A DNA stretch of 64,000 bases from Amaurobius ferox. Taxonomy: Eukaryota > Arthropoda > Arachnida > Araneae > Amaurobiidae. The number at the start of each line of letters is the position of its first letter. The stretch's first letter is position 1. The translations under genes were made by a program, and so were the position numbers. The notes beneath the pieces are model-generated. The model was not told the origin of the DNA, made no database searches, and was given only the letters and a program-made list of their open reading frames with translations. Location: contig OX578133.1 in assembly GCA_951213105.1 (NCBI GenBank), positions 141,539,313 to 141,603,312 of the forward strand, written 5' to 3'. Positions 15,346 to 62,427 of the stretch are shown here, in pieces.

Positions 15346-15377
15346 ATAAGAAAAACAGTATTAACAAAATAAAAAAT

Positions 15378-22861: not shown

Positions 22862-22869
22862 TCTTTTCG

Positions 22870-31959: not shown

Positions 31960-32330
31960 TTTGAGTTTCAAATGCAAAATGAATGTAATGAAAACATATT
32001 AAAATTTTCATAAAAATAAAGTTTATGGAAAATAAATGTTTTACCTGAACTAAGTTGATTTTCAATTCTCATTTCTGGAACATATATTTGAGTTGATTCC
32101 AGAAAATTGGAATCTAAAAATATTAAAAGTAAAGCTAAATATAGAAATTAATAAAAGAAGAATGGTAGAAACATAATCTGAATCTACTGTCACTGGATGG
32201 TATAATTATCAAAGTTCTTTTTGCAATGAACAATCTTGATTATTTTGACATCTTTACTTAAGCATAACTGGGTACACTGGTGTGTGTACACTGGATACAC
32301 TTGTGTTTGTTTAGTGTTTGACACGATGAC
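31960..32330 (-). repeat. exon-bearing unit 1 (exon plus intron flanks)
   Basis: About 350 bp aligning with 35790-37190 (interrupted by piggyBac) and 37200-37570: TTTGAGTTT..AAAATGAATG.AATGAAAACAT, exon, then AAAAATA..AAAGTAAAG and GAAATTAATAAAAGA. Confidence 0.7.
32045..32113 (-). CDS. 69-nt phase 1-1 repeat exon (last seen in gene order)
   Basis: On the minus strand, TTTTTAG precedes 32113 and GTAAAA follows 32045. The 69 nt stay open only in phase 1 and encode D-SNFLESTQIYVPEMRIENQLSS. It is a clear paralogue of the exon at 37405-37473 and the dead one at 37007-37075, with matching intron flanks. The peptide has a T-Q-x-aromatic motif (TQIY), acidic and Asn/Gln residues and no membrane or enzyme motif. 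Family unknown. Conserved frame, length and splice sites argue for a real exon. Confidence 0.72.
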
Positions 32331-32584
32331 TGCCATCTATGAGATAATTTGTAGTTGGCAATCTGCCACTGGATGCCTACTTTGAGCTATCTCGTAGTTG
32401 GCCATTTAATTTCTAACACAAACTATGACCATTCTTGTAGGTAAGATGTGTTAACTATACATATTGGGCATCTCTGTGGCAAGTTAATTAAAAGTCTTGA
32501 TAGCAGCAGGACCTTGGACAATATTATTTTTAAAAACAAGACTTATTTTGCCACAAAAAGTATAAAATAAAAACCCTATAATTT

Positions 32585-33366
32585 CACATCAGGGTTCATG
32601 CCTAATTTTCAAAATGAAATTCCCTGAGTTTTCCAGGTTTTCCCTGTTGTCTTCATAAAAATTCCAGATACTGCATACTACTATTTTAAAGCCAATTTCA
32701 AAAAATAATTTTAGATTTAACTAATATTTAATTTTAGATTTAACTAATATTTAATTTTAGATTTAACTAATATTTAATATGAATACATGACAGTGAGAAC
32801 AAAAAAAATTCAAAATAACTCAAAATTGTCCATATTTGTAAACAATTTTAACTGCATATACAGTACAACCTCAAAAATCTTGACTTCGCAATTTTGGATT
32901 TTAGAATTTTCTGGAATATACAGTTTGGATAAAATTCAAACTTAATATCAACTAGATACACTATGAAACATTATTTTTTAGTAAAAATAATGACAAAAGT
33001 CAAGTTAACTCATTAAAAAATATTATTTAATGCAGAACTAGATAGAATTTTTTGAAATTCGAGTGAAATTTCACATTTTCTATGGTAGCATTAGACAAAA
33101 GTTTGCATAATCATGCATAAAAGGGTTATTTATGACTCGATCACGAAACTTAACAGCTTCAATTATTATTGTGATGCCACTCAGCTGATGAAGTTTTCAG
33201 TGGTAAAAAAAGAAACTATCAGTAGTTTTAAGATTTTTTCAGTAATCAGGTTAAGAAATGAAATATATATGCTCACATAATACAAAAATGCATATATAAA
33301 ATTATTTTAGCATATATATATAATTATGCATTATATATATTTATAAGTTTTATTCAATTAAAAATA
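32585..33366. repeat. dispersed repeat segment, copy B left part
   Basis: Colinear with 10960-12195. Ends at the TA where the 33367-34760 element is inserted and resumes at 34761. Confidence 0.75.
32707..32775 (+). repeat. 23-bp unit in three perfect tandem copies
   Basis: The unit starts AATTTTAGATTTAACTAA. Copies at 32707-32729, 32730-32752 and 32753-32775. The paralogous position near 11071 has one copy. Confidence 0.95.
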
Positions 33367-34760
33367 CACCCAACTCTTTTTTTACATGCTTTTATTTTAC
33401 ACAAATTTGAAGTTACACGGTTCAAAAAAGTCTTCCTTTTTTGAAAAATTTATTTGATCTAACACGATTTCAAAGTTATTGTCTTATACTTATGTACATG
33501 ACCATGAGCTGTCTAGTATAAATTGTAATCTTTGGTACTAATGTATAAAAAAAAATTCACGTTTTTACCACACTTCAAAAATTAGGCAGCACTGTGTGCA
33601 TTGTTATAACGTTATCGAATAAAGGGATTCTCCAGTAACTACTGGGGAATCCCCTCAATTATTAAGGGGATTCCCGATGATTGCAACGAATAATTATGTA
33701 ACTAAATATTATTTCTTTATTTCTATTTTTAATTTTGAGTTTTCTATTCTTAACCCTTTCGCGACGATCGGCACGCCCACGTGCCAGCTGCGAACTTGCA
33801 TTCAAGGACGGACGGCACGCACTCGTGACGCAGGAAACTTTACCGTAAGCGGAGAGTGGCACTTATACGTGCCTCCACGTGGAACATTTTAATTTGTCTA
33901 CTAGATGGCGTTACATATCCGTGGAACTAACTTCAATGAATTTTGCAGAGGCATGACCTTGGCAGAAGAGGATCGAATGAATTATTTCTCCATTTGGAGC
34001 AGGAAATATCATTTTGTAATATAAACAGACAGAGCAATTCTCGTAGCATCAACAATTTTATAATTGAGTTTCGGTTTTTATTTTTATTTCAGCATTATGA
34101 TTTCGTTGGTGAATCATAGGAATATAAGAGAGCATTTTTTTTTGTTTGGGTTTTAGAGGCAGTGAAATTATTCGTTTATTTCGGATAAAAGAATGGGAGC
34201 AACTAACGAGTATTTTGTATTCAGATTTGTATGAAAAATATATATCAAATAGAAAATAAATATTTCTTTTCTTCCTGAAAAAAAGTAGATTTCTGTGTTG
34301 AATAGGTGATTTTTAGTGAATTTTTTTCGAGAGTTAGGCTTAGTGCAAAAAATGTGTCGTCATTTGGGACCAGTTTGGAAGCGAAGCGCTCCGTCTTTTG
34401 GGCCACGACAGCTCCGGAATGCCGCCGTCGCGAAAGGGTTAATTGTGGATTAACAGATTATTTTTTTTTTGCTTGCGCTACTTATTTTTACCTATGAATT
34501 ATGTATTTTAAGTTTTATTGCTCAATAAAATTGCATATATGTATATATCATTCGTATGCATATCAGAACTTTTACAGTTTTCAGAATTTTTTTAACACGG
34601 TTTTTAAACTAAATATAGTTCTTTATTTCATCTTACACAGCTTTCGGATAACGTGGAACGTATCCCCAATTTTACTATAGTAAACTTATCGGTCTTTACA
34701 CTTTTTTTTTACATGAATTTCTGAGAAACGTATCTACCGTGTAAAAAAAAGAGTTGGGTG
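33367..34760. mobile_element. TA-flanked TIR element containing a nested piggyBac MITE
   Basis: Ends are CACCCAACTCTTTTTTTACA and its inverse GTAAAAAAAAGAGTTGGGTG. TA lies on both sides (33365-33366 and 34761-34762). The empty site is preserved at about 12197-12220 as TTAAAAATACTTTATATTGAAAAC, which fixes the boundaries. Without the nested insert the element is about 705 bp and has no transposase, so it is a mariner/pogo-type non-autonomous copy. Confidence 0.88.
33754..34438 (+). mobile_element. piggyBac MITE (copy A) inside the TA element
   Basis: Flanked by TTAA (33750-33753 and 34439-34442) with terminal inverted repeats CCCTTTCGCGACG and CGTCGCGAAAGGG. Its left end matches, inverted, the right end of copy B (35903-36971) for about 150 bp, and its right end matches the left end of B. 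It keeps only ends, so it is a deletion derivative mobilised in trans by piggyBac transposase. Confidence 0.9.
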
Positions 34761-35640
34761 TACTTTATATTGAAAACAAATATTTTTATTTGATAAAGCC
34801 CATTTTTCAAAACAGGAAAATATGTATTATGCAAAAATAATAATAAAATTAACCTCAATAAGTAACCAGAATATAAAAATAAGCTGGTCTAGTCAATCTA
34901 ATATGCAATATTTAGAAAATGGATGGGAAAAGATACTAATGGACTCTCGGCGATTCACGTAAACATATGCAAAATAATTAAAAAATCAACCCTTGATAAT
35001 AGCCAAAATATCAAAAAAAGCTAGTTTAGTCAATCTAAAATGCAACTTTTAGAATATGGGGATGGATGGAAAAGATACTAATGAACTCTCGGCGATTCAC
35101 GAAAACATAAAGTGAATTACATAATCGCGCTGCTTATGCGAAAATAATTAAAAATTTAACTTTATGAAAAAAAAAAAGATCTTTTACATTCCAAGCAGCA
35201 GTAAGTCGTCGTCAAGGTGATTTGATTGGCCTTACCGTGCACATGGCCATAAATCCCTGTTGTCGCATTAATTTGATTGGCATTAACGCATATGCGGCTG
35301 TAAATCTCCGTTATTAAATTTGATTTGCATTAATGCCCATGCGGCCGTAAATCCCCGTTGTTACATTGATTTAGTTGACATTACCATGACCACAGCCATA
35401 AATTTACATTAGCCTTCACAGAAGTCAATTTTCCATAGGAAATTATGCAAATTCGGGAATCTGCTGTATGAGGAAGTTTCCCAAAGAAACTACAGAGAAT
35501 TCGTAGTAATCTGCATCTCCGTGAGGTCGGCAAGTTGAAAATTTCCTGACTTTTCCAGGAAAATTGCACAAAAAATCGATTTTCCCTGCAATTTCCCTGA
35601 CATTTTAGTCCACTTTCAAATTCCCGATTCTCCCAATTTC
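34761..35640. repeat. dispersed repeat segment, copy B right part
   Basis: Contains two satellite units (34830-35165), then the minisatellite (35195-35410), then TTGAAAATTTCCTGACTTTTCCAGG. Here the sites occupied by Copia and by the LINE in copy A are empty. Confidence 0.75.
35195..35410 (+). repeat. 51-bp minisatellite, second array
   Basis: Degenerate units with GTAAATCYCCGTTRTTA and TTTGATTGGCATTAA, lengths 47-51 bp. Sister of the 26810-27025 array. Confidence 0.75.
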
Positions 35641-35902
35641 CAGAGTGAGCACAAACTCTGTCACATTATCCTACTGTAAGGTAAAATGTGGAGGTCGCTA
35701 ATTATTTGTTTGGGGTAGGACTTGATGAACACTCCGTAGCAGTCAACATGACAGTCTGCCAAATTTTGAAGAAAAAAAACTGATTATTAATTCATTTATA
35801 TTTATCAATAATTATTTTTTGAAAATTATTTACTGATTTAAATTTATATACTTGAGTTTAAAATATAAAATGAATGAAATGAAAACATGTTCAAAGCTTT
35901 AA

Positions 35903-36971
35903 GCCTTTCGGGACGGCGGCATTCCGAAACTACCGTGGCCCAAAGGACGAAGCGCTTCATTTCCGAAATGTGCCCAAAAGACGGCTATTTTTTTGCGCTA
36001 AGCCTAACTCTTGAAAAAAATTCACTAAAAATCACCCGTTCAACACAGCATTCTACTTTTTTCAGGAAGAAAGCAAATACTTATTTTCTATTTGATGTAT
36101 ATTTTTATACAAATTTTCTTTTATCAAAATATTAAAAATTTTAGTGTATATATGTTTTAGGCACAGATGGTTAATTCTTTGGCATGTCCTTCCGATTTTT
36201 TAAAACTGTACCACATACATGCGTATTCTTAGACAACAAATACTTTGCAAGTACAGGAGAGGTAAAAAATTTATCCAAATACAAAGTATATCCTTTTCCT
36301 AAAAGTTCACTTAGAAATGTTTTCACAATGCGTTCTCCATACCCACCATCAGAGCTTGATAATCCCGTGTCCTTTCCAGTATACACAAGGAAATTACATT
36401 TATAGCCTCATTCCGATTCTGACGATTTATATATTTTTATTCCATATCTGGACCTTTTCGATGGGATATATTAATGAAATCCCAGCCTTAATTTCCATGA
36501 GAACATAAATAACCTAATCATTTCATTGCCGCACATTCCTTTACCCACCCCCCCTCCCCCACCCACTCAAAAAAATACTCTCTTATATTCCTCTAATTCA
36601 ACAACAAAATCAATAAAAGACAAAAATCAGAACGAGACCCGGAACTCAATTATAAAATTGTTTATGCTGCGAGAAGTGAGCTGTCTGCTTACGCTACAGA
36701 ACCATGTTTCATCCCTCCAAAGGGAGAAATAATTCATTGGATTCTCCTTGTGCCAAGGTGAAACATCTACAAAATACATTTAAGTTGCTTCCAAAGGCAT
36801 TTAACGCCATCTAGTAGACAAATACATTCAAATTAAAACGTTCCACGCAGAAACACCAATACGTGCTAGTCGTCCTTTAGGGTAAAATTTCCTCCGGCCC
36901 GAGGGCGTGCCATTCGTCCTTGAATGCAAGTTCGCAGCTGGCACGTGGGCGTGCCAATCGTCGCGAAAGGG
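35903..36971 (-). mobile_element. piggyBac-type element, copy B, internally deleted
   Basis: TTAA at 35899-35902 and 36972-36975. Left end GCCTTTCGGGACGG is diverged, right end CGTCGCGAAAGGG is intact. Orientation is opposite to copy A. It holds a transposase fragment on the minus strand. It lies in the intron flank of exon-bearing unit 2, whose empty form (ACATGTTACAGTTTTATTAA) is seen near 37352. Confidence 0.9.
36171..36386 (-). pseudogene. piggyBac transposase fragment
   Basis: About 71 codons: YTGKDTG near the start, then GYGERIVKTFLSELLGKGYTL, LYLDKFFTSPVLAKYLL with the Asp that corresponds to a catalytic Asp of the family, and a CGTV-KNRKDMPK end. These are adjacent blocks of the catalytic core. 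Both the N-terminal half and the Cys-rich C-terminus are missing, so it is not functional. Confidence 0.88.
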
Positions 36972-37006
36972 TTAATAAAAATGGAAGTTTGTGAAAAATA
37001 AATATT

Positions 37007-37075
37007 GATATAAAAGTTGATTGTCAATTCTTATTTCATCAATAAATGGCTGAGTTGGTTCTAGAAAATTAGAAT
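37007..37075 (-). pseudogene. decayed copy of the 69-nt repeat exon
   Basis: The acceptor side (TTTTTAG) and 19 or so codons are preserved (D-SNFLEPTQPFIDEIRIDNQLL), including a TQPF motif. The 3' splice donor region is replaced: where paralogues have G|GTAAAA the sequence runs on as TATCAATATT, so it should not be spliced as the others are. It lies about 30 bp from the piggyBac B end. Confidence 0.6.
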
Positions 37076-37199
37076 CTAAAAATAGATAAAAGATTGGTAG
37101 TAAAAGAATAATCTGAAATCCCTCTGACTAGATGATCGGAGTTATTTTTGTAATTTACAATCATTACATGATTATTTTGAAGCTCTGGCCAAATTAATG

Positions 37200-37570
37200 T
37201 TATCGCTTGTATTTGTTTTGTTTTTAAATCCGTAAAAGTTTAGAAAAATAAATTAATTGATTTGCATTTATCAATAATTATTTTGTGCAAAATTATTTAT
37301 TGATTTAAATTGATATGTTTGAGTTTAAAAAGTAAAATTAATGAAATGAAAACATGTTACAGTTTTATTAAAAACTGCAGTTTATGAAAAAAAAAATATT
37401 TTACCTCTGCTCAGTTGATTTTCAATTCTCATTTCAGAAATCAACAACTGAGTTGGTTCTAGAAAGTCATAATCTAAAAATATAAAAAAATAAAGTTATG
37501 CAGAAATTAATAAAAGATTAATAGTAAAAACATTGTCTGAATCCACTCGCGTTAATTAAATAGTACAATC
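37200..37570 (-). repeat. exon-bearing unit 3
   Basis: Aligns with units 1 and 2 on both sides of the exon. A further partial trace of the outer flank (TTTACAATTATTATTTTGACATCTTGA) is at about 38525-38600. Confidence 0.65.
37405..37473 (-). CDS. 69-nt phase 1-1 repeat exon
   Basis: Acceptor TTTTTAG before 37473 and donor GTAAAA after 37405, minus strand. It encodes D-YDFLEPTQLLISEMRIENQLSR. Shares FLE-TQ and EMRIENQLS with the 32045-32113 exon. Symmetric 1-1 phase lets the exon be duplicated or skipped without breaking the frame. Product unknown. Confidence 0.75.
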
Positions 37571-39125
37571 AGAAAAGTTACCAGACAAAGAATCTGCAGC
37601 AATTATGATAAAAACTGTCACACATATTATCAAAAACATGTCTAACCCAACTCAACTTGGTACAACTGACCTTGGATAAACAATGCAAATTAACACGCTC
37701 AACATTTCTTATAGCACAAGGGTCATGACTAATCACTGTCTAGTCATTGGTAACTTACTGAATAGTCCATCTAGAGCCTCCTATACATCCCTCAAAAGTT
37801 CAAATATTATTGGAAGATTTATAAAAATTTTTGCACATACACAATATGTAGTGCATGTCCATATTTTTACAAAATCAAACCTTCAAATTATCATAATTTC
37901 TGGTACAGGCACTGTATCCTTTTAAGAGTTTAAAAATTATTGCTTGCAGGATGCAGCACTTCAGCTTCTGCAATATATATTTTGAAATCCTGTTTTATTA
38001 TGTATTATAGCTGGAATGAAAGTCGTTACTTACACCATCAGGTTATTTCAGTTCAAAATAATAACTTTGTTTAGCAATCAGAAAAGATATTATGCAGGTA
38101 GAAAGAATTTAGTTTTTTTAATATTTCGTGAAATAATAGTGCTCTTGCAAGATCAACTTGTGAATCACAAAAAGGGATAACAGATAGAACAATAAGATAA
38201 ACTTAAAATGCTTCAAAACTACTATTTTTAATTTCGCAGTGGAGATATTTCTTTCCTTGATTTTTGATCTATACAGACATTTAATTTAATTTCCTCATAA
38301 TGCAGATATTTCTAAAATAAGTATTTACAAATTGTAAACTGGCCTTCTTCCATTTTAAAAAGCTAAATGTGATTGGAAGTGCAAATAAAATAAAAATTGC
38401 AATTAAAGGTGTTTAGAAATTTAGAAACTTCTGATGTTTCATCAATTAACTGATATAAGGAAATTTAAATTAATTTTTTATCTACATATCTGCTTTACTA
38501 TAAACAAATACTCTATTTTTGAAATTTACAATTATTATTTTGACATCTTGATATATGCTTAGCTTGGTAAATTAACACTCACTTGTGTTTGTTTAGTCTT
38601 TAAGATTTTCAAAAGAAGTAGGAGAAGTTGGTTTCAAAAGAAGACACATTAAGTACAGGGTTCATATTGCCTTTTCAAAGAAAAGTAGGAACAAAAACAG
38701 GAATTCTTTCTTTAAAAAGTAGGGGGGGAATCTAATTTGAGATCTGTTGACTTATTTTTAAATAATAAGTGAATATAAAATATGTTTGCAGAATAACAGA
38801 AAAATAATATCCAGAAAAATTAGTTTGAAGTTCAGACCTACACAGAAAGTTTATGAAGATAAATGTTAAATTTATGGCTTTCAGCAATAGATCACAATAA
38901 TCTGAATGCACCAATGCTGCTACAGCATTACTGTTAACAGATGCAAACTAACTATAGACATAAGAAAAACCTTAATTAGAAAGCAAACAACTTTCAATAT
39001 TAAATGACTTTAGGTTTATGACAGAAACATTAATTATGTTATATGCAAATAAAAAATTATTAAAAATTGTAATAATTGCAGACTATATTATAATTGACAG
39101 TAAAAAGAAATTAAATGTAAAATAC
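37571..39125. other. intron-like AT-rich stretch
   Basis: No gene or transposon terminus recognised. A good-looking splice donor sequence (GTAAGT, minus strand, near 38030) has no open exon beside it. Confidence 0.45.
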
Positions 39126-39733
39126 TATTGTGAACGTGTAATAATCTCTAACTGGCGCCCCACGTCTTGTCTTTTATTTCAATCACAGACCAAACGGTGC
39201 ATTCGGTTTGTTTTCTCCAGAAGACAACGATATGAACATTCTTTCCCTGACATCACTCTATGGTTTCTAGAATTTCAAGCCAGAAAAAGGGTTGCCAGAT
39301 TTGGTGATTCATAGTCAATTTGGCGACTACCCGAAATATCGCCAAATAACAATTATTCTACAAGATATTAGATAATTCTGGAGATTTCTATAGAGAAATT
39401 TCCAGAAGATTCTATAAAAAGACTATAAAAAGGACTCATCACTCCGTTGGAGTTCAGTTGGGGGTTGATAAATGGATGTGACACGAGCTACATTGGACTG
39501 TGATTTTTGCCAATGTTTTGAGAATAGTAGCTGCTGTTTTGTGAAATCACTTTTGTCAATGTTTTGAGAATAATATCACTTATGCTGTGAAAATAGTGGA
39601 GCATTTAAGTGCTGTTTATATACCATTACTGTTTACTTTATGCTTGTGAATAAGCATAACTTATCCAGAAACTTGGACGTGTTCCTGTATCCTGCGTATA
39701 TACCCATGATTCTAGAGGATACATTTTATAACA
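39126..39733 (+). repeat. LTR of a Gypsy-type element
   Basis: Starts at or near TATTGTGAACGTG and ends TTATAACA. A TATA box (TATAAAAA, 39413-39420) precedes an initiator-like ATCACTCCGTTGGAGTTCAGT. The PBS follows immediately. The start is supported by an inverted partial copy at 40046-40099. Confidence 0.75.
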
Positions 39734-39735
39734 AC

Positions 39736-39753
39736 TGGTGTCAGAAGTGGGAT
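39736..39753 (+). promoter_or_regulatory. Gypsy primer binding site, tRNA-Leu
   Basis: TGGTGTCAGAAGTGGGAT is complementary to the 3' end of a Leu tRNA (..ATCCCACTTCTGACA plus CCA). It begins 2 bp after the LTR, as in Ty3/Gypsy elements. Confidence 0.75.
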
Positions 39754-39794
39754 TTCTAGAAACTTGACAAGTGTATATGGCTGTAACTAGAAAT

Positions 39795-40045
39795 GCGATG
39801 GAGGAACAGTTGTAAATCCAGATGAGACAAGATAAAAGCAGTACAAGACAAGATGATGGCTATGATGAAAACCGAAAAGACAAGATGATGGCTAAGATTA
39901 AAGCCGGACAAAACACGATGAAATATGGATGAGATGAAAGCCAGAGAAAATGAGATGATAACTGGACAAAAGGAGATGAAGGTCAGACAAGACCAGATGA
40001 AAGAGGCTATGAAAGCTGTGCAAGCCAAGATGAAAGTCGGACAAG
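39795..40045 (+). pseudogene. Gypsy gag N-terminal remnant, coiled
   Basis: A degenerate tandem of short Met-Lys-Ala/Gln-Asp units (DEMKARENEM, QKEMKVRQDQMKEAMKAV) predicted to be a coiled coil, as seen at the start of many arthropod Gypsy Gag proteins. Broken by stops near 39813 and frame changes, and cut off where the inverted segment begins. Confidence 0.6.
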
Positions 40046-40112
40046 AAATGAAAGACAAGACTAGGAAAGCCAGTGAGAGATTATTACACATTCACAATAC
40101 TGCCCCCTCCTT
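40046..40112 (-). repeat. inverted LTR start plus polypurine tract
   Basis: In reverse, AAGGAGGGGGCAG (polypurine tract) leads into TATTGTGAATGTGTAATAATC, matching the LTR start at 39126 for about 50 bp, then changes into gag sequence of the other orientation. Confidence 0.75.
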
Positions 40113-40140
40113 AAGACTGTACGTCCCAGGCAGTATCAAT

Positions 40141-40345
40141 CTACTGTAGTCCAAAATATGGGGCCAATCTGTCGATATTGAAGAAATTTGGCTTGTACGA
40201 AGATGATTTCTGGATTCAATAAACAAAACTGCTTATTTTTTTCTTTATGACGTAGGGTTCTTCCCATTTGTACTGAACTTTTGACGAAAATCCTGGTCGT
40301 CGCCGTGGGTTGAACAGCCACACTTTGTTTTTAATTCTTCCTTCT
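40141..40345 (-). pseudogene. Gypsy Pol C-terminus (integrase tail)
   Basis: Minus strand reads KNKVWLFNPRRRPGFSSK, then KWEEPYV, and after a TGA at 40216-40218 the tail with NIDRLAPYFG and a TAG at 40141. This is the GPY/F-type end of Ty3/Gypsy integrase, where VWL-NP, W-GPY and a DRLAPY block recur. It is opposite in strand to the adjacent LTR and gag. Confidence 0.8.
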
Positions 40346-40830
40346 TTTAATTCCACCTTCTTTTTTAATTTTATGTTTTGAAACTTGGACAATCAAGGGC
40401 TTGTGAGGAAAAGGCTTATATAAAGATTTTGGTATTTATTATTTAACGTTCAATTGCCCCTTTTTTATAATCTAAAATTAATATAGTCCCTTTTTGTCAT
40501 AACCTCAATCTGCTTGGCCTCAACAGTGCATGTTTGTAATAAAACACTGTCACTAAGAGAACAGTCATTTATTTTATTACATATATATGGGTCATTTTCT
40601 CCAAACAGGCTTTTTCATCTTTCTTGTTATATCTTTTTTCTATTTTTCAACCTGTTTTCGAAATGTTTTAACATGGGTGGTTTAAAGTGGGGGGGGGGGG
40701 GGGGGGGGGACAGTAGCAGCGATCGTTTTGAGGAAATTAAATAGAAAATGCAAATTTTTATTTTCAAGACAAGTAAATGACAGCATGACAGGAGAATGAC
40801 ACTTACAGGCAACTGCTTTGTTAGTATGTA

Positions 40831-40880
<50 letters not shown>
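40346..40880. other. stretch with poly-G and microsatellites, no gene
   Basis: Possible eroded pol upstream of the integrase tail, then a run of about 20 G at 40690-40709 and a TG/TA microsatellite at 40830-40880. Long minus-strand frames here only translate the microsatellites. Confidence 0.6.
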
Positions 40881-40883
<3 letters not shown>

Positions 40884-41545
40884 TGCTGGACAATTGCTAA
40901 GGATGGATCACAAATTGAAATGCAGCACAACATTAAGCGGGGGTGGAGGCCCAGCAGGATAAAATATTGTTGCCACACTGTTTGGACATTAGAATAAAGA
41001 TCATTTATTGTTTTGAAAAATAGAGAAGGTTTTGAAACATCTGAAAGGAAAAAATAGTTCATTTCATGCTGTGTATGGAGAAATAGAAAAATGCATTTGA
41101 AAGACAGCAGGCACCTTTGAGAAAGGCGTCAGTATGGGATATGTCCACTGTAGAGTGCGATGCAACATTCCACATGTTGTGTCATGCTTTGCACAACATT
41201 ATCCAACAGTTGTTAAGGCAAGTTATCCCACTCTTCTGTCAGTGCACGGATGAGGGTGTTCTAGTTTGTTGGAGGATATTTTCGACCAGCAAGTCGCCTC
41301 CCCAAAGCATACCAAACATTTTCAATCGGGTTTAGATCTGGAGAACGTGCTGGCCATACGAAGCATTGAATTCCCTCACTGACTAGACAATCCTGAACAG
41401 AGAGTGTTCGATGACATGGTGCATTGTCATCCATGAAAACAAATTTATCACAGACAGCACCATGGAAAAGGCAAACATGAGGCAGTAGAACTTCATTTGC
41501 CCATTGCACTTTGAGCATTTGTTCTACTATGGATTTTCTCAATTG
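40881..41545 (-). mobile_element. Tc1/mariner element, copy 2, truncated
   Basis: Left terminus CACTGCTGGACAATTGC directly follows the TA microsatellite. The first 140 bp match the inverted right end of copy 1 (28640-28775). The element retains only the 3' half of the transposase and no second terminus. Confidence 0.8.
41100..41542 (-). pseudogene. Tc1-like transposase, C-terminal half
   Basis: Reads NEVLLPHVCLFHGAV, FMDDNAPCHRT (second catalytic Asp) and ARSPDLNPIENVWYALG (third acidic residue), then EEWDNLP before stops. Closer to the Tc1 consensus than copy 1 in this part. N-terminal DNA-binding domains are absent. Confidence 0.85.
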
Positions 41546-44101: not shown

Positions 44102-46327
44102 CAGTGGAGCACTGTTTATATGTTTCTCAAGGGAAATTCGAAAAAGATGTATAAATGGAAAGATGTATAATCGGAATTTTAAGAAACAACTTTGATTATT
44201 ACAAATTTAATGCTACAAATCATCCTAATTTATTTAAAAGTAATATTTTTATATTTTTAAGATATTATCTATATTGAAAATAATATGTATTAAATTTTTA
44301 TATTTAAACATTTACAATCATAGAAATGAAAAAAAAAAACATACCTTTATTTTATTTTCATACATATATGTCATAAGTAAATACACATCTTGTTTCATAC
44401 GATTTATATGCATGCTGGTAGATGTTAATTAAAAAAAATCTTTAATCGTCGTCTGACATGCTGATTGAATGTGAGTAATGAGTCTTCTATTAATTCATCA
44501 ATTGTGATTAATTTCAAAGTCATTATGTCAGTATCACAATTCACATACTCCTCGAAAGTAACTTCTGATCTCAGGAGATTCCAACTTCTTCATTCATGAT
44601 CACAGTTTCATCATCTCCAGCATTGACATCACTGTCGTCATTGGCATCACATTCATCTAATTTGGGATATGGAAATCCTCCTTTAATGAAACAATTTCTT
44701 ATTGTTTTAGACATGACTTGAGTCCATGCTAGGGAGATCATGATTATTTACTGAAGTACTGTTATCTTTCCTTGAATATTTCCTGTAGTGATGCTTTGAA
44801 GTATATATTGAATTAAACGCTTTCTGTAGTACACTTTTAAGTTTTTTATTATTCTCAGATCTAGGGGTTGTAGTTTGATAGTGCAATTTGGTGGAAAGAA
44901 AACCTCATTCACATTTTTCAAAAAGTCGATCTCTTGGGGGTGAGCAGTACATTGAAAATAATAGAGAGTAAAATTTTATGTTTTTGTTGTTTCATATCTT
45001 TATCCATTTTTTTTAGCCACTCAGTAAAAATTTTAACAGTCATCCACACTTTTGTATTTGCTTCATAACCTACTGGCAATGTTTCAACGTTTGTAAAACA
45101 CTTTGACTTCCGTATGACTAGAGGAGTCATCTTATCACTTCCATCAGCGTTGGCACAAAGTAAAACAGTGAGGTGATCTTTAGATTTTTTTCCACCATTG
45201 CAATTGTCACCTTTAAATGCGAGAATTCTTGCAGGCATTAGATGATAAAAGAGGCCTGTTTCATCAACATTGCAAATGTTCTTCAGCTGGTATTCATCAA
45301 TTTTGTTTGACAAATTTTTTAACCATTTGTTAGCAGTTTTAGTTGGATCATTTTTAGATTCCCCGCTTACCATGTGACTTGAAATTCTGTGTAACATTTT
45401 GAATTTGTGAAGCCATCCAGTTGAAAAACATGCATCTTTCACATCCAATTTCAATGCAATTTCCTTTGCCTTCTCTTTAAGCATGGGAACACTCACGGTA
45501 ATATTTGATGTACAACATTGTGTTAAAAACTAAAGCAAAATGTCCTCTACTTCAGGAAATTTGCCTTCTTGTACATGCAGTTTCTTCAAAGCACAGTTTT
45601 CGCAAGCTGCTGCTTTGTCCTCGATTTTTTTTCTTTCATAGACAATGGTTTTTAGAGCAAAAGCTGGAATATCCAATTTTTTAGCCAAATGTACTTTTGT
45701 TAATCCTGTACTTTTCTCAAATTCTTTTAAAATTTCAATTTTATCTTTTAATGAAAGTGCTTTACATTTTCGGGACATTTTTGGAGAAAGTTAAATTTTT
45801 AAGAAACCAACAGAATGATAATAACCAACAGACTGAATAGCAATACTGAAACATGAGCTCTCAAAAGCATAGGAATTCAATTCAAACTGCTTATCAAACA
45901 AAAGTGTCTGGTGAATTCCCTTTCATTGTTCGTTCTTTTCGTCTTGTAAGCATCAGGTTATTTTAGGGTAGGGGTGATTTCTTCCCGCAGCAGGTGCAGT
46001 TTAGGGTTGCCATGTAAATTTGACAACTTGAAGGAGAATTCTTTGGGAATCAAAAAGGGTGCAAAATTTGTAACATTGGCAACCTATGTAACAGTGATTA
46101 GAGCATCTCTATCCTTGTGGTGGCAATTCCCAAATGTTTTATCCGAATGAAAATTTTCGAATTTTAGAAAGACTTATCAGTGGAAAAACAACATATAACT
46201 GAAGTTTTTCATCATATAAACGAAATATTTTATCATTACATGGCTAGGAATGAATCGGGATTGTGATGAAACGAAGTATAAATGTAAAAGACGTATAAAT
46301 GAGAAAAGTATAAACTGTACTCCACTG
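44102..46327 (-). mobile_element. Tigger/pogo-type DNA transposon, second family, inactive
   Basis: Termini CAGTGGAGCACTGTTTATA and TATAAACTGTACTCCACTG, flanked by TA (44100-44101 and 46328-46329). Distinct in TIR from the 8400-10401 element. Carries a transposase pseudogene on the minus strand. Confidence 0.88.
44425..45778 (-). pseudogene. Tigger-like transposase with CENP-B domains, broken
   Basis: Starts MSRKCKALSLKDKIEILKEF (psq-type HTH). The second HTH (CENP-B type) shows STGWLHKFKMLHRI. The DDE core has ICNVDETGLFYHL at about 45240-45280 with the first catalytic Asp intact, then DHLTVLLCANADGSDK and PLVIRKSK. After KWM-type sequence a frameshift near 44960 removes the DNC-AH block with the second Asp; downstream IKLQPLDLRIIK is out of frame, and the tail ends NQHVRRRLK before TAA at 44425. 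A frame break near 45500-45530 splits the N-terminus. Confidence 0.88.
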
Positions 46328-46329
46328 TA

Positions 46330-46776: not shown

Positions 46777-46878
46777 TCAAGAAAATTCTGCATCAATCGT
46801 AGTCCCAGATTTCATGGTTGATAATGCTGGATCATTATTCATTTTCAATTTGAATTTTGTGTTTAAAAATTCAATCAG

Positions 46879-52680: not shown

Positions 52681-55160
52681 TGGAAGTGAATGATGATGGT
52701 TGAATTGAAAAATAAACGTACAACTGTTATGATGGTTTTCAATGACGCAGCTTTTCCAAATCAATTAGAATTCAAAATTCATAATTTTCAGCCTTCCATT
52801 CAAAATTCTAAATTAATTTATCGTTATTGTGTATTTCGACGATTTATCTCTTATTAACATTCATTTATTATGCCTTTCTAGCAGTCTAATATTCTAAATT
52901 AAGTGCAATGTATTTGCAAATGCTAAATATATCCTTTCAATCCTTTGCCAATTCACTAGTGTCCCCTGTACGTTTTTCTTTATGGTTTTATTCTTTCTCT
53001 TTCGGTTGAAAATTTTATTAAGTAAATCGACAAAAAAGTGCATCTTTTAAAAGTCCCTTTCTCAGCTTATCGTTTGAACACCTGGTTTTAGGGTGCCTCA
53101 CGAACATTCCTTAGATAAGTCATTCATGTGTTTAAGTTAGCTAGGATTTTGAGGCAATTCTGCACCTTGCGTTTTTGGCGAAGCATTCTATTTTTATTCA
53201 CAGGGTGCATAGGCGCTTTATGCAATATGCAAGTTTTCACTCGCCAAGATTGGAGGCTCTTGGGAAGTGAAAATCTCATTAGTGGGACATTCTATTCTGA
53301 GCAGTGACTTGAGGCGGGCATAAGATTTTGTGGAGCCACACTCCAGGACTTATGCTATGGTACCCATGACTCATGGTTACCAGTGAGAAGATTTTTTCAT
53401 TTTAATGTTTTTACCATTGTGCCAACAATTAATGTGAAGTGTTTCTGGGCTTGCTCTGCCATCCCCGTATCATCAATCTATTGTCTCTAATCATCCCAGC
53501 AACAACAATCTTATCTTGCAGTGTGTATACCAGTGAAGTGAAAGTTTTGTCAGACTACAGCGCTGCAATCTTGCTACCATTTTTCCCGGCTACAGGTTCT
53601 GCACCGTCATCTATTTTTCCTAGTGCATGCCCCTGCGATGCGCTGTCACATTTCAAAGATCTGCTGCTCAAATTATAGTTGATGGAAGCGGCCACAAGAC
53701 CAATTATTTTGTTTACAGTGATAAAATGTGAAGAACAAGTGTTGTGTTGTGTTGTGTTACCAACCAATTTCATGGGTTACAGTGGCTTGAAAATGTAACC
53801 AGTTTTCCTGGTCCCTTGTGTGAATAGCTCCTAATGTGTGGTGCTGCCATCTATGGTTGGACACAAAAAACATAGCAGTCCAAATGATAATTTTTCTATA
53901 AAGTGTTGGCTGAGAATTTGATTAGTATTTTAATTTTAACAATTATTATGAATTTTTTTTAAACACTTACACCTTTATTTCCAAACTTAGAACTTATTTT
54001 TCGAACATGTACACTTGCAATTTTACATTTACTATTTGCTTTTGCTTTTTCTTCCTTTTGGTAGACAGTTTTCCAGGCAGACCAAGCTCTGATCTTCAGA
54101 CTAGAGTGGAATCTGAACCTGGGATTTAAGTATTTTAAAATCTCAGTTAAAAGTTTTGAAATGATTGTTTTACTTTAAAAATTGAAGGTTAACTGTTACT
54201 GGAGATCTTAAGTTTTAAATGTTTGTTTAACAATAAAGGTTTAGTTTGGCAAATATCTTGTATTTATTTTGTGTTTGTTTGGCTATTAATTATTTTGGGT
54301 ACTTAAAGGTAAATGGATTCTGGAATTTAAAAAGTTGATTGTTTGGTGTTGGTATATATTTCAAAAAGGTAAAAATCAAAATAATGAGCACAAGCCAAAC
54401 ATTTAGAAATAGGATACAGAAACTTTATTATTTAATCAGCTTATTGGAAATAATCTTGAAAGTCAAAATAAAATATAATACATTATACAATCAGGCAATT
54501 TAAAAATAATAACAACTTTAGTTTAATCAAAATAACATCTTAAAATAAATATAAATAATAAATCAATTAAGGATGTCAAAGACGACATCACAACCGATGA
54601 AATGCAAGTTTTTCTGTCATTAATTTAGTATTATCGATTTTAGTGTACTAAATATTTAAAAATTTTTTTAATAGTGAAAATCTTTTTCAAAAATTCTTTG
54701 CTTTTTTAGAGATATATAGTACCCTACCTTTCAATACTTGTTGCTTTTTCCAAATACTCGATATTTTTAAAATTCATAAATTGTTAACTTTTATGTTTAA
54801 TATGTTATTTTAATTCAAATAAATTTTTCAAGGAGAATAAATGTATTAGTTGAATAGTATTCAGCAATATCATTTTGTTGTCCTATAAAACTTGATTATC
54901 TGACAACAGAAAAACAAAGTTTTATTTTTAAATAAAAAAAAAAAAATTCAGTTAGTATTATGTTCCAAGTAGCATTAAGTAACTTACTAAAAAATGTAAA
55001 AGTAACTTGCAACTGTAATAACTAATTACTTATTTTTCATAGGTAACTGTAATGGTTCTCTATTTATTAATTACACTTTCAAAGTAACTTTATTGACTAC
55101 ATATTAAGCATTTTAAATACTTTCTAAAAATTCCAAAATAATGAAAAATTCACATTTTAC
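52681..55160. other. gene-free stretch
   Basis: Opposing 70-80 codon frames at 53439-53773 overlap each other and match no family I know. The rest is AT-rich, intron-like. Confidence 0.4.
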
Positions 55161-55256
55161 CTTTATTTTGCACAGGTGCATTTTTCTCAGCCTGAGTATT
55201 GTCCAGCATGTTTAACACTGCCTGATAAGGTTGTGTACTGTTTAAGACAGATGAGT
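55161..55256 (-). CDS. 96-nt phase 1-1 repeat exon
   Basis: Acceptor TTTTTTTCAG before 55256 and donor GTAAAATG after 55161 on the minus strand. It encodes 32 residues: DSSVLNSTQPYQAV, LNMLDNTQAEKN, APVQNK. It begins like the 69-nt exons (DS..LNSTQPY against DSNFLESTQIY) and carries two TQ sites. 96 nt keeps the 1-1 phase. Product unknown; low-complexity Ser/Thr/Gln content suggests an unstructured region. Confidence 0.72.
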
Positions 55257-56564
55257 CTGAAAAAAATAAAAATTTATAATTGGGTGAAGTGAAAAGAATA
55301 AAATAAATATAGTTTGAATTGTATATATCTAATAGACCTAAATAATAAGATTCATGTTTTAGCCTACTATCTAAGGAACTTAAACTAGTATCTAGTTATG
55401 ACAGTTTGCATTGAAAAGAACCACTACAAACCTTAATTATTTTTTAAGAAAGCTATTTTTAGTGTAAATATAAAGAAAGCAATATTGCATCAAATCAAAA
55501 GAAAATGAACTCAGGATATCAATATAAATAAAATACAATTAACAATGAAGCTCTATGCAGGCATAAAATACACTCATTTCCATAAATTAAGAATCAAAAT
55601 AAATTCAGAAGACATTTTTCCAAAGTTAAAAGTAATGAGTGCAAGTATTATTTTAGATGATAATTAATTAGTCCTTTATGCTTCCAAAAAAATATAAAAT
55701 AGAATATATTTTTAATAAATTTATAAAGTTGTAAAAACTTATTTCGAATTGTTGATACACATATTTTTAATAAGGCAAAAATATTATAATGGCATTTTTT
55801 AAAGTGAGAAAAATTTTAAAAAGGTAGGATATTTTCCTCACGACTGTGATTTTTAAAGCACAATTTATTTTTTGTATAAAAACAGGGATGAGATTGCCTA
55901 AAAAGCAAAAAAGCTGAAAATAAAATTTTGAGTAAATTATATGAGACAGACGTTTTAAGTGTCAAAACATTTGAGAATTACACATAACTAAAAAAAATAA
56001 AAATACTACATTGCAAAAACAATGATTTAATTCATATTATTATATTTAGTATAATACAAGCTTGGCAATTGCATTTAAATATATAAGCAAATTTAATATT
56101 GGCACAATCTTTCATATTAATTCTAAACTATGCTTTTGTTATCTATAATAACTTATGCTTTTATTTTTGTCAGTTTCGTAGAAATTAAATTATTATACTT
56201 TCAGGTTATACAAACAAAAAAATTTCCATAATTTGTAAAACACAAATTTTTTATAATTACGAAGACACAAATTTTTTGTTCCAAAAGTGCAGTATATTTT
56301 CAAACACATATATAAAATAATCATGTTTTATTAAAATGTGCATTCTCTAGGTCTACACAGAAATAACATTTTGTGGCAGTATCACATGTTTAAAATAAAA
56401 TGTTTCTTTTGTCCAAAAATGTTTTTTCATAAAAATGTGGCAGAAAAATATTTCATTGAGTTTATGTCAAAGAATATTAAAAAATACATCCACAGGTCAT
56501 ATCTTGAAGCAAGATATTCACTCTACCTCTGTTTTCCCTTTGAGTTCAGTGACATAAACATATA
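55257..56564. other. intron-like stretch with the 6.24-kb duplicate
   Basis: 55680-55900 is homologous to 6240-6500. No gene seen. Confidence 0.5.
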
Positions 56565-57649
56565 CAGAATGCAACCTCTTATCCGGCGTTCCAATATCCG
56601 AACTTTCCCAAAACCGGAATGAGGCAAAATAATGCCAAATTCTGTGCCAACACTCAATTATTTGCCAAAAATTGCGCCAAATAGCGGTTTTTTGTTTAAA
56701 ATCCCACCAAATGATTTTTTGCCTTAATTAGCAATATTAATATTATAAAATAATGCGTTGAAATCTGCATTTTTCTCACTTCAACTGTTTGCGATCCTGA
56801 CATAAAGATCTGGCTGAATCCACAACTTGCCACATCGGAAATGTTGTTAAAAATATTTCGGGAAGAAGACGAAAACTACAAGTATCATGGAGGTAAAAGT
56901 GAACTCAACCTCCATGGTGGATATATTTGTTCCATGTCAGATAAACATACTTTCGACGAATGACAAAACAGTTTCTTTGTGAAATGATATAAAAAAATTA
57001 TATTTTTAGAAAAAAAAAACATATTTTCTTTTTTAGAATGGGTGAGCGTTCGTTTGATGCCTCAATGACTTCGTAGTGGTAAAGTTACGTCATAACATTT
57101 TTCACTGCAAAGTGACTGGGGCTTTGGGAGAAAGCTATGGAATCTAAAGAAATTTGCAGAGATTTTTAATTTTTTTTCTTGTGTACTAGTAAGTTTATAA
57201 TTTTCAATTTATGGATTTCATTTTCACATATTTTTGAAATTCTTAACATAAAAATTAACTTTTGGCATTTCCAGTTAACTGTACGCACTGATTATAAATA
57301 AACTGTAACCATGTTAAAACAGCTTGTTTTGATTTTTTTCACGGTGGTCTGCTATGATAATACCAAAGGAGTGACAACTTTTTTCAGACTTTTTTTTTTC
57401 TTTCAAAAATTTTCTTAAACACTAATTAATACATGTAATTTGCATTTTAGTTAACCAAGTATATTTTTCATATAGATTATAAAAAAGCTTTATGTAATAC
57501 ATTTATGTTCTTAAAATGAATTATAATTTTCTATACCATCATTTGAGACCATTCCAGTAAGTTTTAGAAAAAGTGTTCCGAGTTAGGAAAAAAACCCTTA
57601 TCCAGAATGCCTAAAGTCCCAAGCATTCTGGATAATAGATCCTGTACTG
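56565..57649. mobile_element. non-autonomous pogo/Tigger-like element
   Basis: Left end CAGAATGCAACCTCTTATCC and right end GGATAATAGATCC..TACTG form imperfect inverted repeats. TA at 56563-56564 and 57650-57651. Interior of about 1.08 kb lacks a transposase and includes a short GCCAAA-rich region (56640-56710). Confidence 0.7.
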
Positions 57650-57651
57650 TA

Positions 57652-58559
57652 TAATAATGACATATACATGTATTAAATATCAGTGATTACGGACCAGGAC
57701 AAAAATCTAATCTGCTTTTGGTTCCACTTCTGTGGGATATTTTACAACTCCACCCCTCCCCCTTTCTCGAATCACCCTTTATTCACAGATAATTGCAATC
57801 CGAGGAGTTAACCAACCTTGATCCAATCAAGTAGTTTATTTCCTAGGAGAAGTGCTGAATCTGGCATTGTTGTAGGCGTATTTATTGTACACACTTTGTT
57901 CGCCCCCTCACTTTATAAATCTTTTATCTGTATCCTGCATTTTTATTGGAGTTAAAAACAAGAAAGTCCTACCAGTACTGGGGAATTCAGATGAATTCCT
58001 TGAACTTTGATTGCAAAGCACCACCCTCTTTTGTTAGCTCTCCCCCATGACCTTTGTTAACCACTGAAGTGCAAAAGCAAAGAGCTAGTATCAAAATTAA
58101 TCCTATTTACCGAAATAACTCATGGAAGTGCAGAACCCACAGTCCACGAGTACAGTGCCAAGAATGAAAGGATTGAAAAGAAAAGGTATGAATAAGGTAG
58201 TGATTTTTCTAGTACCCCCTTGTTACCTGCGTATTCTCTCCAAAACGACTACCGACATTACAGGAGGTAAGAATAAAACTAAAGGAATTCTGTGTTTGCT
58301 CGTTTGGCAAAGAGTATTTAATTTATCAATGTAGGGTGCATCATAGTTACATTTACAAATGAAGTGTTTTGTAGACAGAAGTATGCAGATTTCTTGGAGA
58401 TTTTCTTTGAAAAGTGGAACTTTATTTGAGGAGAAAAATTTATTTAAAAAACTGAATTTTTAGAGAAAAGTAAAAACAGAAGTGTTCAGATTTCTCAGAG
58501 ATTTTCTTTGAAAAGCAGAATATAATAAAAACAAATTTAATATTTCAAAATTTGAAATT
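57652..58559. other. somewhat GC-richer stretch, no gene assigned
   Basis: 57700-58260 is richer in C and G than its surroundings and has a 70-codon frame (58122-58334) with no recognised match. 58375-58400 and 58480-58510 share TTTCTTGGAGATTTTCTTTGA-like sequence, a local duplication. Confidence 0.35.
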
Positions 58560-58756
58560 TTTAAATGAGAAAAAAAAAATAGATTCATAGCACAGCAAGG
58601 TAATGCCTTATTGCTAAAGAGTCAACTTTTAGATAATTTAGTAAATTATACGAAACATTTTTTGAGAATAAAAAATATTGCACAATAGTTTATGTGAAAA
58701 TAATTTACAAATTAAGCTTTATTATTAACCAAAATATGAAAATAAGCTAGTTTAGT

Positions 58757-60989
58757 CCAAGGTTAATAGAATTAACAGGTTGTCTCGTTCGCTATTCCCC
58801 CCATGGAACCATTTCTGGGCGAGCTGTGACGTCACTGCTAGACCTTCCGTTCTGTTGACAAGCGGCGCTTCGTTGAAAAACGTTGGAAAACAGCACGGTT
58901 TTGTTTAAAAATGCCTTGCTTTAAATATCAACGAGATACATGAAATGTTTTCTAAAATAATGTCCTAATACTGAAATATGACAAATGAACTCAAATTTGA
59001 ATTCAAAACGAACTAAATTGCTGTAATTAACGGATGAAGAAGTCAAAAACAGCCGTTTGACAAATTATATATTAAGACAAGGATATGATTTTCCGGGTGA
59101 TTTCGTATAACAAATACATTCATCTTCTTTTTTACACAAAATTTACATATTTCATGTGTAAATTGATAATCTTTATTAATATTTTTACTCACAAATATAT
59201 TGCATGAATATTGATTTTAATATAGTATTTTTTAACAATTACTTTTACAACACATTAAAGATTTTAAACGAAATATCCCGTTCAAATTCATTAAATAGAG
59301 ACTGTGCACTTTACTGTCTGTATTTTCTATTAAAGGTTTGGAATAGGATACAACTGATGAGAAATATGTAAAAATAGAATTAAATAATATTTATTTCTAT
59401 AAAACTCTCCATATTATCTTTATGAATTTGCAATTAAATTTCTATTTCTTTAAAAATTGGATGATTTAAAATTTCCTGCATATAAATGCTATGGCACTTA
59501 TTCTATCAAGTAAGCGTACCATTCCGTTCCTAATAGTTCCTATACAAAAAATATTTGAACTTTATAATTTTCTGAAAAATGTCATCGATTTGATTTTAAA
59601 ATATTTAGATTGTATCATTGCATGCACAATGCATGTAATTAATATTTTCATTTTATATGCTTAAAGAAAACCCCATTTCTATATATTTAATGATATACAT
59701 CTGCTGTTTAATTTTGTTTATTTGAAGTTTTTGTGAATTCATTTAATTTCTTTTATGGTATAGATATTACCGCAGAATTCAGTCAATCAGCACTTTAAAT
59801 GCAACAGAAAATCGTGAAAAATAAAAGGGGGGGGGGGGGGGTTAGGGAGTATTATCCAGAATTTTATGCTAAAAGAAACAAAGGCTATTTTTATCATTTT
59901 ATTCGACGACGAATTTTTTTTCCCCGAAATGTGTCCAATATTTATGGGGAAGGAGCTTCAAACTAAAAAGATTCCATTCACCGTTCGCTTTAAAATAAAT
60001 AGGGGTAAATGTATCATTTTAATGTGACTATAAATTTATTTTGTTTTTACAAAATTATCCATAAAATTACACTTGTTTCTTTTAACTTATGAATATTCCT
60101 TTTTTGAACAAAAACCATTTTTATTGAATCGAAATTACTCCGTCTTACTCATGATGAAGTCCTTCAATTTGACGAATCAAGATATAAATGCCTTAGCAAA
60201 AACTTTATTAACAAATTTACTAACAAAAAAAATCTTAACAAACTACATTTAACGTGACTAATAATTATTATTGCAATGATTTGATAAAATATGTGTTTTC
60301 AAATTTAAATCAATTACTGTTTTTTCTTCAGATGATTTTGAAAGTTTCCTGACCTTCTCTCAAATCCAGACGATATATTTTTTCTAAAACATGTAAAATT
60401 TTTGAACTAGACAAAAGCTATGCATTCATTGCCTGGAAATAATATTTATTCTAATTTATACTGCTTTATTCATGCCTGTAAACTTCGGAATACAGTCAAT
60501 ATTTAAATGATGATTGATTTGCCACATTTAGATTAGAAATATATATTTATATCCTTCTCAAACCGATTCGCATAACACACCTAACACCTATTGGCTCTTC
60601 TCTGATCATTCACTATTTTTTTATACATAACTTTTGCTCATTCAATTATCTTTCAACATAGCATTCAGTAATCTTTGTATAAACTTCACTTATGTTAAAA
60701 TTTTAATAGCTTCCACTCTCATAAAAAAATTGCTATTTCTTTTCATATGTACGGAATTTATTTTCATAAACTTCACATTACTATGCATGTACTGTTTTAT
60801 TTTGTTCTATATTGCTTGCACACCGTTACTATTAGATAAATATTTAAATAGTTTCCGATCAACGTTTCTCAATAGTTCTCGCCTCTATCAGAGAATGGGT
60901 CTAGCAGTGACGTCACTCGTCCTTCCTTCCCGGGACAACTTTTCCCCCGAACGAGACAACCTTATATATAAGATATTCTACGGACCTTG
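58757..60989. mobile_element. 2.2-kb long-TIR element in a satellite unit
   Basis: An 8-bp duplication AGTTTAGT flanks it (58749-58756 and 60990-60997), possibly 9 bp with one mismatch. Terminal repeats are long, about 150 bp: CAAGGT..TAGAAT, then GGTTGTCTCGTTCG, then TGACGTCACTGCTAGACC, present inverted at 60905-60980. The middle has no transposase and includes a run of about 16 G at 59826-59841. Long TIRs with an 8-9 bp duplication suit Mutator-like elements; P-like is also possible. Confidence 0.8.
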
Positions 60990-60997
60990 AGTTTAGT

Positions 60998-61180
60998 TAA
61001 GCTAATGTGCAATAAGAGGATGGAAAAAGATATTTATGTACTCTCGTCAATACCCGAGAATAAAAACTGAATTGTGCAATTGTACTATTTATGTGAAAAT
61101 AATTAACAATTTTATAATTAACCAAAATATGAAAATAAGCTAGACTAGTTAAGCTAATGATGCACTGGAAAATGAATTCA
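60998..61180. repeat. satellite units resumed after the insertion
   Basis: TAAGCTAATGTGCAATAAGAGG then ACTCTCGTCAATACCCGAGAA, same family as 6730-7270; left half lies at 58680-58756. Confidence 0.7.
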
Positions 61181-62200
61181 GTTCACGAATTTGAGCATTT
61201 TACACAAATAATCGTAAGGTGCAAGTTCTCCTTCAAGAATTCGGAAATATTTACAGAGAAGATCGTAAAAGCTCGCACTAGAAAATGTTACACAAAGTGC
61301 CGAGGTACGCACAGCATTTGCACAAATTTTGGAAAAAAAGAATTCCGTTTTCGGGATTTTTTATGATTTTCTTCATCGGTAGACACTACTCTGATTCAGG
61401 AACTTTAAATAAGCAAGCCAATATATGAACTTTCTCTCGCTATCATTTTTGGTATTTGCCTTGGTTTAAGGTAACCACACCTTTATACACTCTTTTGAGT
61501 ACATACTACTTCTTTTTCCCGAATCAGAATATTTTAGTTATGTCGAAACTATTAATGGAGTATGCATGTTTACTTTTTACAAAAGTAGGAACATGTGTAC
61601 ATTGTCTTTTTGTAAGAGAGCCCCATGTATTTTTCATAAACAAATTATTTATTGTTTTGTGTAAATTTTCTTTCCTTTAGCATGCATGATGCGATTCATG
61701 GAGAACTAGGCATAACATATGGATATGTCTCAATCTTTGATAGCTTTTAGAAATAGAGGTATTAGAGAAGATCCCCCAAATCTATATCGATATTGTTATA
61801 TAACAGCAGGTATGCATATAGCAAACTCTCAATACTAAGTTGCTGACCTATTCCACCACAAATGGTGACCTTTACTTGGATAATTTATTTGAGTAAACAA
61901 GTCCACATAAGTGATTGATATTGCGATCAATTCATTTTACTTTATAAATATAAATGTGCATGTTTTTACATTTAGTATGGGAAGTAGAAAGCTACAAAAA
62001 ATAACCTATATTTACTACATTTAATATTACTTTATTATATTTTAATAGCTGAAAACTTGTTAATTATACTAATAAAGTTTGCCCAAAGTAACTTTATTTA
62101 TTCTTCAAAATAATTTTGTTCCATAAGATTATGTTATAATCACTATATGCAAACATGCTAAACAATTTTCAATAAAAAATCAAGCTATAAAACATTTTAC
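61181..62200. other. intron-like AT-rich stretch
   Basis: Frames at 61157-61366 and 61456-61680 have no recognised match and no splice context. Confidence 0.4.
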
Positions 62201-62269
62201 CTGCATCTGAATCATCTTCACTTTTCTGATCAGTACCAAACGGTGCCGTTGATAACAAAAATTCAAAAT
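62201..62269 (-). CDS. 69-nt phase 1-1 exon, divergent repeat
   Basis: Acceptor ATTTTTAG before 62269, donor GTAAAATG after 62201. It encodes D-FEFLLSTAPFGTDQ followed by the acidic tail KSEDDSDA. Same length and phase as the exons at 37405 and 32045 and alignable at FL.STAPF against FLESTQIY, but with TAPF in place of the TQ motif and an acidic end. It joins in frame to the 55161 exon (DSDA, then DSS). Confidence 0.75.
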
Positions 62270-62407
62270 CTAAAAATTATATAAAAATATATAATTTAAT
62301 ACTTATAATAAAATATTGAGAAAAATATAATTTAAATTAAGAAATTACATTTTTAGAAAAATTTTGGAATCTTAATAATGTTCTTTTTTATGCATAATAA
62401 AATTTAC

Positions 62408-62427
62408 CAGCATGCAAATTTTTAGGT
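62408..62427 (-). CDS. 20-nt candidate microexon
   Basis: Very good acceptor: CTTTTGTTTCTTCTTGTTGCAG on the minus strand. Donor GTAAATTT. The 20 nt enter in phase 2 and leave in phase 1, giving PKNLHA continuing into DFEFLL of the next exon. Upstream exons would lie beyond the window. Confidence 0.5.

Follow-up and report, generated by a model that had tools for sequence, protein, structure and literature searches.

A stretch of 64,000 nucleotides (nt) of contig OX578133.1 of the spider Amaurobius ferox (C2:141539313-141603312, hereafter the window) includes on its minus strand four short exons encoding related peptides. These exons belong to an array that extends beyond the window and that, together with two BRCT exons located farther downstream, is probably part of a spider gene for MDC1, a scaffold that brings repair proteins together at DNA breaks. 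The window exons are found at 62201..62269 (69 nt, DFEFLLSTAPFGTDQKSEDDSDA, with the variant TAPF and splice scores of 4.6/7.1), 55161..55256 (96 nt, DSSVLNSTQPYQAVLNMLDNTQAEKNAPVQNK, with TQPY, a second TQ within the added part and splice scores of 10.7/6.1), 37405..37473 (69 nt, DYDFLEPTQLLISEMRIENQLSR, with TQLL) and 32045..32113 (69 nt, DSNFLESTQIYVPEMRIENQLSS, with TQIY). Each has AG and GT at its borders, an open frame in phase 1-1 and Asp as its junction codon. A broken copy at 37014..37075, also on the minus strand (DSNFLEPTQPFIDEIRIDNQL, with TQPF), was identified by tblastn and by its sequence; it has lost the donor side, its frame is still readable, and its downstream intron flank resumes at about 35811-35899, past an inserted repeat element. 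A preliminary description of this DNA had listed four minus-strand exons of 69, 69, 96 and 69 nt and a dead copy with these borders and this phase, and the sequence bears it out. Its upper limit of 62427 does not stand: nothing symmetric was found as far as that position, which is an AG acceptor preceding an open stretch of 20 nt (62408-62427) that would break the frame. This stretch, flanked by a strong-looking acceptor and donor, has TTGCATGCTG in common with a 48-nt phase 1-1 exon just outside the window (C2:141603471-141603518, GEALHADEKEFQDENS), itself an unproved candidate, and is possibly a decayed exon copy or a product of chance.

In addition to the window, 100 kb on each side and 80 kb further downstream on C2 were read. 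The search for more exons beyond the earlier coordinates, which had been proposed in the preliminary description, added six intact members, all downstream and on the same strand. The array thus consists of one broken copy and 10 intact minus-strand exons in phase 1-1, of which seven measure 69 nt, two 72 nt and one 96 nt; the ten intact exons span 187 kb (C2:141414321-141601581), and four of them and the broken copy lie inside the window. The added members are three 69-nt exons named m1 (C2:141519631, DCLLLPPTQIFEEEFQSIDTRES), m2 (C2:141511455, DCLLLPPTQMFEEESQSIDTQES) and m3 (C2:141493030, GNLPVPPVQVFDEESESTDSRES), a 72-nt exon (C2:141469918, DIEFIEEIPGRNLNLNENEEDEYT), the 69-nt exon m4 (C2:141449425, GRVPVPPIKVFPEESESTDSRES) and a second 72-nt exon (C2:141414321, DIEFIEEIPKRNINLNESEEEEHS), so that m3, m4 and the 72-nt exons alternate at the downstream end. 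No additional units were found in C2:141359313-141399312, and a phase 0-0 exon candidate at C2:141663444 was dropped as it matches nothing.

The units were also used to search the 3.56-Gb genome (276 contigs) with a cut-off of E≤10, and scoring was confined to the top candidates (8 and 10). The searches returned 4 and 6 places, every one of them at the array locus, including the exon at 55161 with an E value of 1.4e-11; the broken copy was not among the places listed. At the sensitivity used the family therefore occupies a single locus, which makes it unlike a transposon family, and the possibility of a transposable element, for which many genome copies would be expected, is not supported.

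An open frame of 69 nt between AG and GT was rejected as evidence by itself because its frequency matches chance: the window has 38 on the minus strand and 58 on the plus strand, and shuffled sequences have 32.5 ± 4.1 (40 shuffles). When candidates also had to have well-scoring splice sites and a G|A[TC] junction, with thresholds picked after the exons were known, three exons remained on the minus strand and none on the plus strand, the mean per shuffle being 0.05 (maximum 1) in 40 shuffles and 0.04 (maximum 1) in 100. A similarity score was then applied to 312 candidate exons from both strands of 304 kb, and the ten family members took the top ten ranks. Eight of them had shaped the score; the two held out, 55161 and 62201, scored 12.7 and 11.7, and the best candidate outside the family 2.7.

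Kinship of the units and duplicated modules

The pair formed by the 37405 and 32045 units clearly resembles the pair m1/m2, with 0 or 1 outside candidate scoring as high, and the 55161 unit resembles both pairs. At the DNA level m3 and m4 are clearly like m1/m2. Similarity is not limited to the exons. The 37405 and 32045 modules, introns included, are 74% identical over 280 nt, m2 and m4 have about 1.8 kb in common, and the two 72-nt modules have 361 nt in common with 85% identity. The exons were indeed duplicated, as previously proposed, and within each subfamily the copies arose together with their introns. The core of the preliminary description, a family of symmetric exons in which each unit adds about 23 residues without shifting the frame and in which long introns are filled with transposons, holds with six members added.

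These similarities suggest that the array grew by tandem duplication of modules of about 0.3-1.8 kb, each made of an exon and its intron, and that transposon insertions then spread the modules apart. Since the exons of 69-96 nt start and end in phase 1, their duplication, loss or skipping preserves the frame. Between m1/m2 and m3/m4 the identities are 0.71-0.75 for the exons and 0.78-0.86 for the flanks, while m1 and m2 show the opposite trend (exon 0.94, flanks 0.79-0.90). The m1/m2 exons thus differ from those of m3/m4 more than their own introns do, and diversification of the units, even to the point of losing the phosphothreonine, is conceivable; the numbers being small, diversifying selection is only suggested.

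The TQXF core and the downstream BRCT exons

Five of the ten live units include the sequence TQx[F/Y/L] (TQPY, TQLL, TQIY, TQIF and TQMF), one has TAPF, and TQPF is found in the broken copy. Across the 11 units, broken copy included, column 1 (D) is the least variable and column 8 (T) the second, with L5 next; in the seven units that bear T, D1 and L5 are invariant and Q9 is present in six. Because of this T-Q-x-[F/Y/L] core the protein was predicted to be MDC1, a reading that was set down beforehand, when only the window exons were known. The MDC1 TQXF motif is phosphorylated by ATM and bound by the FHA domains of RNF8 and Pellino, according to the available part of PMC11884936, in which the human docking peptides include VLApTQPF and DEPpTQAF (pT, phosphothreonine). 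The spider sequences FLEPTQPF and VLNSTQPY resemble these peptides. When 264 kb were scanned for exons of phase 1-1 that carry T[Q/A]x[F/Y/L/I/W] and have Asp at the junction, ten rows were obtained on the minus strand and none on the plus strand; those on the minus strand were the four window exons, an alternative form of one of these, three unrelated sequences and two new 69-nt exons (TQIF and TQMF). With 25% acidic and 6% basic residues in the units, the array region is plausibly disordered. The PDB and Pfam gave nothing significant when searched with the repeat units. SDTD repeats, which bind NBS1, are absent from the ten live units; they were not treated as required, being described for mammalian MDC1 only in the sources seen. 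KNL1-type repeats, for which a literature search gave no useful result, and TRAF-type motifs were also considered.

The human MDC1 tandem BRCT sequence, identical to that of PDB 2ado, was used to search the whole genome, and six matches at E≤10 were obtained: two on C23, two on the minus strand of C2, one on C9 and one on C10. The C2 matches, at 141213771 (E 0.0018) and 141205225 (E 7.2), are colinear with the human protein and define two BRCT exons, C2:141213770-141213869 and C2:141205224-141205379, located on the same strand as the array and about 200 kb 3' of its last repeat unit. These exons have acceptor scores of 8.2 and 9.4 and donor scores of 8.9 and 3.1, respectively, and can be joined in phase. 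The joined sequence of 85 amino acids, which covers part of a BRCT pair, was compared with solved structures; MDC1 was the best match (60.5 bits, E 1.5e-15) and PTIP the second (46.9 bits). Near the C23 matches lies an additional exon that matches PTIP weakly (E 0.005) and that no MDC1 entry matches at E≤10; for this reason the C23 gene is taken to be PTIP-like and separate from the C2 gene. The sequence KRTVKF in the C2 exon aligns with human RRTVKF and keeps the residues at the human R1933 and K1936 positions, which bind phosphorylated H2A. A tblastn match of the MDC1 BRCT sequence at C2:141623986-141624072 (E 0.33) was dropped because its similarity does not continue.

Alternative explanations

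We give a probability of roughly four in five to the interpretation that the array and the BRCT exons together represent spider MDC1, with a docking region that would have grown by module duplication, and we infer from the genomic sequence that both sets of exons are spliced into one messenger RNA. A number of observations weigh against this interpretation. With respect to the BRCT exons, the top genome match of the MDC1 query is on C23 (E 6.4e-5) and not on C2; the first C2 match includes one TAG, which sits at the splice acceptor; the second (E 7.2) is weak by itself; Pfam PF16770 gives the 85 amino acids 24.5 bits, below its cut-off of 27; and none of the 12 matches of a BRCT_2 genome search is on C2. 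With respect to the units, the strict TQXF sequence is found in only two of the ten live units, and four have no T, two of these having V or I at that position and the other two being the 72-nt units. Two protein-database searches with the units, which covered proteins of about 440-2100 amino acids (44 and 686 candidates) in a database that includes spider proteins, found no homologue. A genome search for FHA domains gave 22 matches, none on C2, although an FHA domain split by introns could escape it, and 20 kb of the 100 kb upstream, scanned with Pfam in three frames, gave no FHA match. Kinship across subfamilies is uneven as well. The 72-nt units resemble the m units at a random level (145 and 112 of 298 candidates score as high) and show only fair similarity to the pair 37405/32045 (6 and 3 of 298), to which m3 and m4 are weakly similar (11 and 40 of 298). 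Because of this weak kinship the 72-nt exons may constitute a second exon family within the same gene.

The array could instead belong to a gene of its own, perhaps restricted to spiders, that encodes an acidic, disordered repeat protein and happens to precede MDC1 on its strand. The continuous sequence read ends at C2:141359313, and in the 145 kb from there to the BRCT exons (C2:141214101-141359312) another gene could lie; the absence of an FHA match on C2 and of a database homologue of the units would also be compatible with a gene of this kind. On the other hand, the TQx[F/Y/L] core is a known MDC1 motif and was named ahead of the discovery of the BRCT exons, and by our own arithmetic a given gene would be found by chance within 200 kb on the same strand in about 3 of 100,000 cases. 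We consider a separate gene unlikely.

Still less probable, in our estimation, is that the exons are the remnants of a coding array no longer in use, or that they never coded. Exon divergence does keep pace with that of the introns (identities of 0.74-0.78 and 0.68-0.80, respectively), so that the exons are no better conserved, and in five of the six pairs of m modules exon identity is below that of both flanks, clearly so in four. One copy is broken, and a frame open in all four m modules often arises by chance alone (90 of 483 gap-free window-frames). These figures, too, count against a coding array. However, ten intact copies keep their splice sites, length class, phase and open frame (splice sites and frame being in part selection criteria), the four m exons are gap-free although their flanks carry gaps, and the T-bearing units share a common core over their first 12 or so residues.

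The least probable of these explanations is that the units act as a PEVK-like spring in a protein related to titin, such as sallimus or projectin, for while the exons are short and symmetric and the units acidic and proline-containing, P, E, V and K add up to 30% over 241 amino acids, below the 40% cut-off given, for 250-amino-acid windows, in the accessible text of PMC12063666, lysine accounts for 5 of the 241 residues, and the downstream domain is an MDC1-like BRCT.

Other features of the region and comparison with known systems

The introns include abundant transposon-derived DNA. Paired inverted transposon-like arms (inverted repeats I1-I4, 74-85% complementary) fill the intron between modules at 33747..36978 (unstranded), and the remains of a non-long-terminal-repeat retroelement, with open reading frames matching the Pfam families DUF4780, endonuclease, reverse transcriptase and RNase H, are found at 21524..26489 on the plus strand, downstream of the last unit of the window. 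Remains of pogo/Tigger-type DNA transposons (CENP-B_N/HTH_Tnp_Tc5 and DDE_1) are present on the minus strand at window positions 8958-10002 and 44918-45496, and those of a Copia-type long terminal repeat retrotransposon (gag and integrase) on the plus strand at 14356-16640; frames of similar appearance are also found near C2 141476000 and 141499000. Repeats of about 51 and 47 bp in tandem, whose units look related, lie at window positions 26810-26993 and 35220-35388, and a tandem array with a unit of about 233 bp is found at C2:141468116-141469634, with related copies on both strands across the region. A Pfam scan of the window minus strand (2-32, 1-2 and 61-64 kb in three frames, 47-61.5 kb in one) detected transposon domains and one chance-level match only, and a scan of three 10-kb flanks on the same strand detected one Tc3-type transposase domain and nothing else. 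No Rfam match at gathering scores and no viral contig was found. Elsewhere in the genome, C21:111798848-111804004 is an unbroken frame of 1719 amino acids with an FHA domain and a senataxin-type helicase; its top match is 57% identical, and its best named matches, senataxin-like proteins of spiders including Araneus, Argiope, Nephila, Stegodyphus, Parasteatoda and Uloborus, are about 44-50% identical. A BRCT frame at C13:129915871 and a BRCT exon at C5:35994700 are presumably RAP1-like and RFC1-like, respectively.

If the array is part of MDC1, its mode of action can be proposed from the known protein. After a DNA break, ATM/ATR-type kinases would phosphorylate the T of TQx[F/Y/L], FHA-domain ubiquitin ligases such as RNF8 and Pellino would dock on the phosphothreonine when position +3 is aromatic or a leucine, and the BRCT pair would anchor the protein on phosphorylated H2A. 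The four units without T would act as spacers or bear another motif. As a tentative and rather doubtful extension, exon skipping could determine how many FHA docking sites a cell has and of which kind, and lineages would alter them by module duplication.

Vertebrate MDC1 likewise has several T-Q-x-aromatic motifs per protein, repeated in the linker ahead of the tandem BRCT, four TQXF motifs being given for the human protein in the available part of PMC11884936. The spider array, compared at the level of the motif, differs in having 10 units of three subfamilies over 187 kb, each with its own symmetric exon, and in its looser motif, with F, Y or L at +3 and no T in four units. The Drosophila orthologue, MU2, has several TQ dipeptides, and an array with one exon per motif is not described in the portion of PMC2672170 at hand. 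The tandem BRCT of PTIP (PAXIP1) is the next-best match of the C2 BRCT exons and scores below MDC1; the PTIP-like gene of the spider is on C23, where the BRCT exon at C23:23647542 is PTIP-like. The PEVK regions of titin and projectin are likewise unfolded and encoded by short exons that can be skipped, and those of insects are alternatively spliced according to the accessible parts of PMC3835035 and PMC12063666, but they differ in amino acid composition and in the downstream domain.

None of the papers listed by our literature search, which covers few subscription journals, deals with spider TQXF arrays. The reason why most MDC1 orthologues hold several TQXF motifs is a question raised in the available part of PMC11884936. 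Unit exons that can be duplicated without affecting the frame would constitute a natural series in which motif number, spacing and loss could be compared across spiders and tissues, and the array would illustrate how a fast-evolving linker may expand inside a gene about 400 kb long while the frame is kept.

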